This document shows, one piece after another, positions 40,470 to 43,261 of a stretch of 64,000 nt of DNA. Origin of the DNA: Natronomonas pharaonis DSM 2160 (GTDB lineage Archaea; Halobacteriota; Halobacteria; Halobacteriales; Haloarculaceae); NCBI RefSeq assembly GCF_000026045.1, contig NC_007426.1, positions 868,001 to 932,000 on the forward strand, given 5' to 3'. The notes below the pieces were generated by a model. It saw only the letters and a program-made list of their open reading frames with translations, made no database searches and was not told the origin of the DNA. The position numbers were made by a program, and so were the translations under genes. Position 1 is the first letter of the stretch. Every line of letters starts with the position of its first letter.

Positions 40470-41417
40470 ATGTCGCTGCTGGAGGCCATCGCGGAGCTGC
40501 ACGTCATCCCCTACACGGACGTGCTCGCGTGGGTGGTGATGGCCGCCTTCATCGCCGGCGTCGCCGCCGACTACCGCGATAACCTGCTCGCCGCCCGCCG
40601 ACTGACGGCGGGTGCGTGGTGGCTGTTTGCGGTGTTTTGGTTCGTTCTCATCCAGCATTTCGCCTTCGTCCATCGGAGCGTCGTCCAGACGGTGTTGATC
40701 CTCATCGCCGTGCCGGCCTGTTTGTACGTGGGCTGGCTCGTCTTTGCGGGCCGGGACTCGCTGTTGACGCTTTCGCGTGCGGTGGCGTTTATGACCGTCA
40801 TCTACCTGCCCTTTGAGACCTCGGAGCTTGCTCGCGGGCTCCTCATCGAGGCGGTCGCCTTCCAGACGGCAACGGTCATCGACGCGCTGTCGCTCGCCGA
40901 CGGCATGGAATACATGCAGGACCCCGATGAGGGGTCGACGCTGATGAACACCTTCTGGTTCCCCGAAACCGGCCGCGCCTCTCGGGTCGTCTTCGAGTGT
41001 ACCGGCATCGGCGCGATGTCGATATTTGGCGGCCTCATCGCCGCCGTCAACGCGCCCCTGCGCCGGAAGGCGGTTGGCATCGCCCTCTCGATTTCGATAA
41101 TCTGGGTGCTCAACATCGGCCGCAACGTCTTCATCGCCTTGGCGAACGGCTACCAGTGGTTCGCCTACTCGTGGCTCGAAGGTCCGATAATGGCGCTTTT
41201 CGGGCTGACCGACCCGGCCCGCGTGTCGTTTTTCGTCGCCGACCGGGTGCTCGCACAGCTGCTTGCGGTCGTCGCGTTGGCAGGGCTGGCGTGGTTCATC
41301 GCCCGCTGGGTACCGGAACTGCTGGATATCGCCGAAGAACTGCTCTCGATTGTCGGCATCGATGTCGAGCTTCACCACCCGTCGGTCGACCGAACTGATA
41401 CCGACCCCGCCGACTGA
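40470..41417 (+). CDS. artA: Archaeosortase A
   Basis: This 315-residue polytopic protein (about eight hydrophobic segments) carries the exosortase/archaeosortase catalytic signature: Cys177 in FECTGIGAMS, Arg218 in LNIGRNVFIA and an Arg-containing SFFVADRV segment near 251-259. ArtA removes the C-terminal PGF-CTERM helix of surface proteins and links them to a lipid at the cell surface (known from Haloferax). ArtA of this length and layout is the usual haloarchaeal form. It is followed after one base by the Tat-leader gene at 41419. Confidence 0.9.
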   Translation: MSLLEAIAELHVIPYTDVLAWVVMAAFIAGVAADYRDNLLAARRLTAGAWWLFAVFWFVLIQHFAFVHRSVVQTVLILIAVPACLYVGWLVFAGRDSLLTLSRAVAFMTVIYLPFETSELARGLLIEAVAFQTATVIDALSLADGMEYMQDPDEGSTLMNTFWFPETGRASRVVFECTGIGAMSIFGGLIAAVNAPLRRKAVGIALSISIIWVLNIGRNVFIALANGYQWFAYSWLEGPIMALFGLTDPARVSFFVADRVLAQLLAVVALAGLAWFIARWVPELLDIAEELLSIVGIDVELHHPSVDRTDTDPAD

Positions 41418-41418
41418 G

Positions 41419-42423
41419 ATGGCTGATAACGAACCCACACAGCACGGCGACTCCGAAACACCGACGATAACTCGCCGCCGACTGCTGGCAGCGGGCGGTG
41501 GTGGCGCGTTGGCGGCCGCTGGCGGCGGCGTGGTCTACAACACCCAACTCGGATACGGCCGGTTTACTGGGACGAACCTCCGCAAGCAGGACCTCGACCC
41601 GGTTGTCACCGAGCGGCTCGACCCTACCTTCGATGAGACACTGGGTGAGGGACATATCCGGACAGACGACGCAGCGCTGGTCGCTGATGGCGACCGGCTC
41701 CCGTTTGACGCCGACCGCGACGCCGTCGCCAGCGTCGACAGACACATTGCCGCTAACGACCGTCTGCTCGCACTTTGGGAGGACCTCGCGGCGCTGGACC
41801 GCGGTGAGTTTACAATCGAGTCCAGTACCCCATCGGCATTCTTCGACCGTATCGCTGGGGCGACAGCCCGGCCGGAAACCGTGACGGCAATCCGCGGCCG
41901 CTGGGACCAAACTGTCGATGTGGACCTCGTCGAGCGGTTCGCTGCGACCGACCCTGCCGACCCACGGGCGCTCGTCGATGGATTGGCCGACGCCTTCGAG
42001 CGACACACCGATTACGACATCCCGCGGTACCTTGCCGGGGCTATCGAGGACAACGTGCTGTTCGGTGCTGTCGACCTTCGTTCCCGGTTCGAAGCTGCTG
42101 TCGATTTCGAGTCGTTGCTCGCCGACGACCCCCGTATTTTCTGCTGGGAACTCACCTACCGCGCCATCGAGGCGCTACACGCTGTCGAGGCAGCCGAACA
42201 GACCCTCCCGGTCGCAGCCTGCTACGTCAGCGACCGCCGACACAAGCACGTCTACACCGGTGTCGTGAGCGCTGTGCGAGATGAGGGAACGCTCGTATTG
42301 CCGATGACGTTTCTCGACTACACAGCCGTATTGCTTGACGACACGCCGGGCTTTTCGCGGCTGTTCGGTGACGGGCTGGCGGCCTACGACCGCGACCACC
42401 GAGCTGACGAGATATACTGGTAG
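41419..42423 (+). CDS. Tat-exported protein of unknown function, downstream of artA
   Basis: From ATG 41419, one base after the artA stop, this 334-residue protein begins with polar residues and then TITRRRLLAAGGGGALAAAGGG, a twin-arginine leader without a lipobox. The mature part is acidic with HKHVYTGVVSAVRDEG near the end and no recognisable domain. Co-transcription with artA suggests a surface-related role (inference). Confidence 0.75.
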   Translation: MADNEPTQHGDSETPTITRRRLLAAGGGGALAAAGGGVVYNTQLGYGRFTGTNLRKQDLDPVVTERLDPTFDETLGEGHIRTDDAALVADGDRLPFDADRDAVASVDRHIAANDRLLALWEDLAALDRGEFTIESSTPSAFFDRIAGATARPETVTAIRGRWDQTVDVDLVERFAATDPADPRALVDGLADAFERHTDYDIPRYLAGAIEDNVLFGAVDLRSRFEAAVDFESLLADDPRIFCWELTYRAIEALHAVEAAEQTLPVAACYVSDRRHKHVYTGVVSAVRDEGTLVLPMTFLDYTAVLLDDTPGFSRLFGDGLAAYDRDHRADEIYW

Positions 42424-42465: not shown

Positions 42466-42480
42466 AGGTATTTATATCTG
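42466..42480 (+). promoter_or_regulatory. TATA box of the pilin-like gene
   Basis: GGTATTTATATC is centred about 26 nt before ATG 42500, giving a leaderless transcript. Confidence 0.55.
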
Positions 42481-42499: not shown

Positions 42500-43261
42500 A
42501 TGGTCCCCGAGCGCCGCGGTGCTGTTCCGGTCACCGGCGTTGCCTTCCTCGTCGCCATCACGCTCATCCTTGCGACGACAGCGTCGGTGTTCGTTTTTGG
42601 TATCGGCGACGATGGTATCGCCGACGAGGCGGTCCCGTCGGCCGCCTTCGATACCGCAACCGAGTCGACGACGCTAACGCTGACCCACGAAAGCGGCGAC
42701 ACCATCGACGGCGACCGGCTCGAAGTTCAGGGCGGCGTCAATACAGACGTTCCCGAGACAGTCGCCGCGGGGAGCCGAATCGAGACGACGCCAATCGAAG
42801 ACGAGGTCAGGCTCGTCTGGCACGGTGATGATATCAGCGCCACGCTGACGACCGTCGAAACCGACTCCGTCGACCTCTCGGAGTTGTCGGCGTTTGTCAT
42901 CGAGTCATTCGCTGTCGATGACAGCGACTGCCCCAGCGGTACTGCAAACATCGATGCGACCATCCGAAACACCGGTGAAGTAACTCACGAACAGGACATC
43001 AAGCTGTATCTGGTCTACGATGATGGGGAAGACGAGCTGTTTGAGACGCGAACGCTGGAGCTTGCCCCCGGTGAGACGGAGGAGATATCCGAGACACGTA
43101 GCTGCAATGAGTTTGAGGACAATCCCGACGCGGTCCGCCTCGAAACCGAAGACGACGAGGCGGTCGAGGACCTCGCCGGTTTCGGCGTTCTCGTCGCGCT
43201 CATTGCAATCGGGCTGGCGCTTGTACGTTTTAGCCGGCTGGGCCGTTCGAAGAACGCGTGA
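42500..43261 (+). CDS. Pilin-like protein with CARDB-type domain and C-terminal AGF-type sorting signal
   Basis: The 253-residue protein begins MVPERRGAVPVTGVAFLVA with a hydrophobic helix, like archaeal type IV pilin N-termini. The middle is acidic beta-rich, including IDATIRNTGEVTHEQDIKLYLVYD, a CARDB-like fold with Cys (DSDCPSG and RSCNEF). The end is GFGVLVALIAIGLALVRFSRLGRSKN, the layout of the ArtA-recognised C-terminal signal (motif, helix, basic residues) but with AGF instead of PGF. Archaeosortase A lies just upstream at 40470. Confidence 0.72.
   Translation: MVPERRGAVPVTGVAFLVAITLILATTASVFVFGIGDDGIADEAVPSAAFDTATESTTLTLTHESGDTIDGDRLEVQGGVNTDVPETVAAGSRIETTPIEDEVRLVWHGDDISATLTTVETDSVDLSELSAFVIESFAVDDSDCPSGTANIDATIRNTGEVTHEQDIKLYLVYDDGEDELFETRTLELAPGETEEISETRSCNEFEDNPDAVRLETEDDEAVEDLAGFGVLVALIAIGLALVRFSRLGRSKNA

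Follow-up and report, generated by a model that had tools for sequence, protein, structure and literature searches.

An open reading frame in a 64,000-nucleotide window of the Natronomonas pharaonis DSM 2160 genome combines a pilin, an Ig-like domain, and an archaeosortase-type tail in a single polypeptide. In our preferred reading, which we regard as evenly balanced, the gene specifies a complete haloarchaeal type IV pilin that continues into an Ig-like domain and an archaeosortase A (ArtA) sorting tail and would be processed at both ends. The unusual feature of this protein is the pairing of pilin and ArtA tail, not the AGF motif within the tail.

Anatomy of the fusion gene

The gene (42,500–43,261; all window features described here lie on the + strand) starts with ATG and comprises 253 codons for a protein of 253 residues, its fused architecture being defined by the open reading frame and by profile matches. 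A TATA-box-like element, TATTTATATC (42,469–42,478), is read directly in the sequence ~26 bases 5′ of the ATG. In archaea, a TATA-like box at such a distance is compatible with a leaderless gene, and the position of the element fits a leaderless fusion gene. The GC content by codon position (0.66/0.44/0.73) is like that of the neighbouring genes. The encoded protein is acidic overall (54 D/E versus 14 K/R) with basic residues at both ends, which fits a middle part facing the outside. In the AlphaFold2 full model, the chain is arranged as a helix, two beta domains, and a second helix. A Foldseek search with this whole model returned low TM-scores only, with no pilin among the best 50 rows listed, and the pilin relationship described below is drawn from the amino acid sequence and not from the fold search.

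The N-terminal half corresponds to a short haloarchaeal pilin

The N-terminal region scores above cut-off with Pilin_N (PF07790; 4.3e-13, 50.4 bits, cut-off 25.2) and with the archaellin/pilin N-terminus model TIGR02537 (27.3 bits, cut-off 20). Together with the tripartite tail described below, the Pilin_N score bears out the initial annotation, which had recognized a type IV pilin-like start and an AGF-helix-basic tail. Moreover, residues ~4–125 match short haloarchaeal pilins end to end, for example with query residues 4–120 on residues 25–143 of a 145-residue ORF. Thus, the fusion protein contains a complete pilin and more than a pilin-like signal. Type IV pilins of haloarchaea (PF07790; solved chains 8fj5, 8gi2, and 9myg) likewise consist of a leader, a hydrophobic helix, and a beta head; the fusion protein differs from them by ~128 extra residues that make up the Ig-like domain and the membrane tail. 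Chain 8fj5 was matched at 6e-11 with the single sequence and at 8e-46 with a pilin profile.

The basic leader MVPERRG (42,500–42,520) is followed by AVPVTG, and this junction aligns with RA/VSPVIG and RG/VIPVLG of other pilins (slash, cleavage position), P10 being nearly invariant. Prepilin peptidase is consequently predicted to cut after G7. By alignment, the leader RRG/AVPVTG fits the class III prepilin peptidase pattern, and we consider the protein a fairly likely substrate of this enzyme. The adjoining hydrophobic helix (42,521–42,601; helix 11–33 in the AlphaFold2 model, within the Pilin_N match to residues 10–78) reaches a hydropathy peak of 2.48, towards the lower end of the values for other pilin-like ORFs. 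It leads into the beta head (residues 48–125; 42,641–42,874), which is delimited by the match to short pilins and by its pLDDT of 91–97 over residues 51–120 in the full model.

A predicted Ig-like domain follows the pilin head

Residues 130–218 (42,887–43,153) form a beta sandwich in the full model as well as in a model of the C-terminal half, with a pLDDT of 73–83 for residues 131–210 of the former and 84–96 for residues 21–90 of the latter. Upon alignment, this segment shares the pattern of the CARDB-type stretches of surface proteins of the genus. It resembles Ig-like stretches of the CARDB type (PF07705) in haloarchaeal surface proteins by its N-T-G ... L-x-P-G-E type pattern and by the beta sandwich predicted in the models, yet its CARDB match of 14.2–15.6 bits stays under the Pfam cut-off of 22.7. 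The “CARDB-like middle” of the initial annotation is therefore a fair likeness, although the domain is no CARDB member by score. Foldseek with the C-terminal half found as best matches part of GH3 beta-glucosidases (best E 9e-5), at a TMq of only ~0.5; we take the matched part to be their fibronectin-III-like domain.

The tail resembles an ArtA sorting signal in its AGF form

The C-terminal segment (43,160–43,258), identified by TIGR04126, hydropathy, and the model, comprises VEDL, AGFG (residues 226–229), a hydrophobic helix with a hydropathy peak of 2.4, and the basic end RFSRLGRSKNA. The AlphaFold2 model shows the tail helix at residues 226–252 with low confidence. Against the PGF_CTERM profile TIGR04126, the protein scores 19.4 bits as a whole, 23.5 bits in the genome search, and 24.3 bits with the tail alone, so that the cut-off of 24.5 is never reached. 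The tail is nevertheless the genome's seventh-best match (E 1.8e-4), set apart from the next one (16.2 bits, E 0.038). The window has 342 stop-to-stop ORFs with 100 residues or more, and the fusion gene is the sole one to terminate in GF followed by a hydrophobic stretch and basic residues, which argues that the pattern is more than chance.

The accessible part of PMC7157517 describes the PGF signal as tripartite and ArtA as processing Tat and Sec substrates. The fusion protein shares with PGF-CTERM/ArtA substrates (TIGR04126 with TIGR04125) the C-terminal GF-helix-basic tail, the presence of ArtA in the genome, and AGF in other surface-type proteins. It differs from them in having A for P, in a score barely below the curated cut-off, and in an export signal of the pilin type, compared with the Tat and Sec substrates of which that source speaks. 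Further, its tail is not preceded by the low-complexity P/T/E/D-rich stretch that comes before GF in the genome's other tails, and its basic end (RFSRLGRSK) is dispersed instead of forming a run of R as in those tails.

Despite these differences, the most plausible reading of the tail is an ordinary ArtA signal, with AGF as the local form, and the protein is quite probably an ArtA substrate. A plain membrane anchor is the weaker reading, since the PGF_CTERM score of the tail clearly exceeds the background of the genome. Thus, of the two options offered by the initial annotation, AGF as a tolerated variant is supported by the tails of the genome and the genus, while the plain anchor has lost ground.

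Proline is missing from the clear PGF_CTERM tails of this genome

The genome contains six tails above the PGF_CTERM cut-off, reading AGF in four, HGF in one, and SGF in one, and PGF in none; three of the six are near-identical and may be paralogues. As all six are devoid of P, the AGF of the fusion protein is ordinary for this genome, and it is largely settled that AGF represents the local norm of the ArtA signal. In 19 further genomes of the genus, P precedes GF in 57 of the 68 tails read and A, D, S, or T in the other 11. In all, 75 of the 201 TIGR04126 matches tallied were read, with a preference for high scores that biases the count towards P in the genomes other than this one. Broken down, P is found before GF in 0 of 7 tails here (the six above cut-off and the fusion gene), in 16 of 22 in six other genus genomes with a single artA, and in 41 of 46 in the remaining genomes of the genus. 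Outside the genus, the best tail of each of 29 genomes reads PGF in 28 cases and PGL in one. The accessible text of PMC8875312 lists five S-layer proteins of other haloarchaea that carry PGF, and that of PMC3403918 gives 17 PGF_CTERM targets in Natrialba magadii.

At the genus rate, the chance of encountering no P is 2e-5, a value too strong given the possible paralogues, or 7e-4 with four independent proteins, still uncorrected for the choice of this genome after looking. The genome has shifted away from P among its clear PGF_CTERM members, and two tails below cut-off keep it (TPGF, 16.2 bits; QPGL, 13 bits). The former, DTPGFTIGAAVLALALVLATALIGYNRR at 2,136,990–2,137,055 of the chromosome, possibly marks a further ArtA substrate.

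The combination of pilin and tail is rare

A C-terminal membrane helix occurs in one of 128 distinct pilin-like ORFs, the fusion gene, and in none of the other 127. These ORFs were collected with the pilin-start profile as distinct stop-ended frames that continue for 20 residues or more beyond the match, and their loci had in part been selected for long frames. Applied as a control to 77 PGF-like tails, the hydropathy test recognizes 76. Likewise, no other pair of TIGR04126 and Pilin_N in one frame was seen when the genus matches listed, which comprised all but the weakest for TIGR04126, were compared by eye. The initial annotation had expected a protein handled by both pathways to be unusual, and the count of 1 in 128 agrees.

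No full-length homologue was found in 60 relatives (no match past residue 157), in 392 genomes of the order (E 1e-10, best six candidates or fewer per genome; no match past residue 151), or in genome contigs (two partial matches), plasmids (three partial matches), and viral contigs (no match). The C-terminal half alone retrieved only CARDB-like or PGF-tail pieces from 20 genus genomes. As to the checks proposed at the outset, the residue before GF varies among PGF_CTERM tails, both in this genome (A, H, S) and across the genus (P, A, D, S, T). For the refuting case of homologues with a plain anchor and no GF, these searches offered no full-length homologue, and the pilin relatives are without any C-terminal anchor.

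In the accessible parts of PMC9263693 and PMC4343526, the prepilin peptidase PibD and ArtA belong to separate pathways. The portions available of PMC5867893, PMC8305020, PMC4500146, and PMC12186497 mention neither AGF nor pilins with ArtA-like tails, and no dual-processed pilin appears in the accessible text of the literature on the PGF-CTERM/PGF motif, archaeosortase, prepilin peptidase, the N. pharaonis S-layer, or Natronomonas pilins.

The artA locus

The artA gene (40,470–41,417; TIGR04125, 329.6 bits, cut-off 75) lies 1,082 bases upstream of the fusion gene, as approximated by the ~1.1 kb of the initial annotation. Its product carries C177, R218, and R259, which follow one another in the same order and at similar distances as C173, R214, and R253 of Haloferax volcanii ArtA, residues named as critical in the accessible part of a review (PMC9263693). 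Between the two genes, a Tat-type protein of 334 residues is encoded (41,419–42,423), which is without a Pfam or NCBIfam family over cut-off. This gene is kept beside artA in 17 of 17 other loci of the genus (partial or broken in three, on the opposite strand in one), and its product is a possible ArtA partner. Beyond it, 11 of these 17 loci contain a second archaeosortase gene, about where the fusion gene sits here; these second enzymes are 40–47% identical to the ArtA of the window, and the N. pharaonis genome has one copy only.

None of the 17 other loci contains the fusion gene itself. Consequently, the gene was either acquired or formed independently in this lineage, and its closeness to artA carries no weight; we have therefore rejected this nearness as evidence for ArtA processing.

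Within ArtA, S184, seven residues past C177, replaces an alanine that is present in 27 of 27 other aligned archaeosortases, and S141 stands where 25 of 27 have G. Co-variation of ArtA with tails that lack P was considered and set aside, as one genome is no test and another genome with several such tails has the usual alanine.

Discussion

The genome is equipped for both maturation steps. It encodes a single prepilin peptidase of the archaeal type (PF06847, 44.2 bits) and one ArtA, ten T2SSF matches across several pilus-platform genes, and seven Pilin_N matches over cut-off, the fusion gene included. From the anatomy of the protein and this equipment, we infer that insertion would place its two beta domains outside the cell and keep leader and tail on the inner side. 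Prepilin peptidase would then cut after G7, and ArtA would cut at AGF, remove the tail helix, and leave a lipid anchor on the new C-terminus. The chances of the protein being a substrate of both enzymes are about equal to those of the contrary. What remains would be a pilin-like subunit held at the membrane through its lipid, unable to travel off in a growing filament but capable of tethering the pilus at its base. This role as a pilus-base anchor is doubtful. Several points stand against the preferred reading as a whole: there is no orthologue in the collections searched, the tail scores barely below cut-off and departs from the genome's other tails in the stretch before GF and in its basic end, and pilins are normally without a second membrane helix, so that the tail may block entry into the filament.

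The strongest alternative, which we hold tentatively and at less than an even chance, is a surface protein anchored by ArtA whose pilin start serves as an export signal alone, with the cut by prepilin peptidase optional and without the protein ever joining a pilus. It draws on the same evidence for ArtA as the preferred reading, namely the tail score and the genome's other tails without P, and it accommodates the modest hydropathy of the N-terminal helix as well as the diversity of ArtA substrates noted in the accessible part of PMC7157517. Against it, the whole pilin head is present and would be superfluous for a mere signal. A surface protein with a pilin signal and no pilus role is about as likely as a lipid-tethered subunit at the pilus base.

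A membrane protein held by two plain anchors appears unlikely. Here, an uncut signal anchor and a C-terminal anchor would hold the beta domains as an outside loop at both ends, and neither enzyme would act. In its favour, the basic ends suit such a simple in-out-in topology, the tail narrowly misses the PGF_CTERM cut-off, and the lack of such a tail in any other of the 128 pilin-like ORFs may indicate that pilus function has been lost. Yet GF is found where the profile wants it, in a tail that ranks seventh in the genome and apart from the next match, and the leader retains the R-G/xxP pattern. Very improbable is a recent, functionless accident in which a short pilin gene happened to fuse with the 3′ end of a gene for a CARDB-PGF surface protein: the lack of a full-length relative in the 392 genomes of the order or the 20 genus genomes and the absence from other artA loci speak for it, but codon-position GC resembling that of the neighbours, a frame open across both domain borders, a TATA-like box of its own, and two beta domains that model well speak against it.

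In its boldest form, our preferred reading describes a pilin whose two ends are processed by membrane proteases unrelated to each other and which covalently links the pilus base to the membrane, in a genome whose clear ArtA substrates drifted from PGF to AGF-type tails, possibly with a matching change in ArtA (S184). We consider this full combination rather improbable. Processing at both ends would make the protein an ArtA substrate that takes the pilin pathway instead of Sec or Tat, and would join a pilin to the membrane directly through a lipid.

In genomes such as that of N. pharaonis, likely substrates can fall short of the curated PGF_CTERM cut-off. A mutational study of the PGF motif reportedly exchanged G and F and left P unchanged. 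With the proline lost from every clear ArtA substrate, this genome amounts to a natural experiment on the requirements of ArtA, in which the P of PGF would be dispensable.
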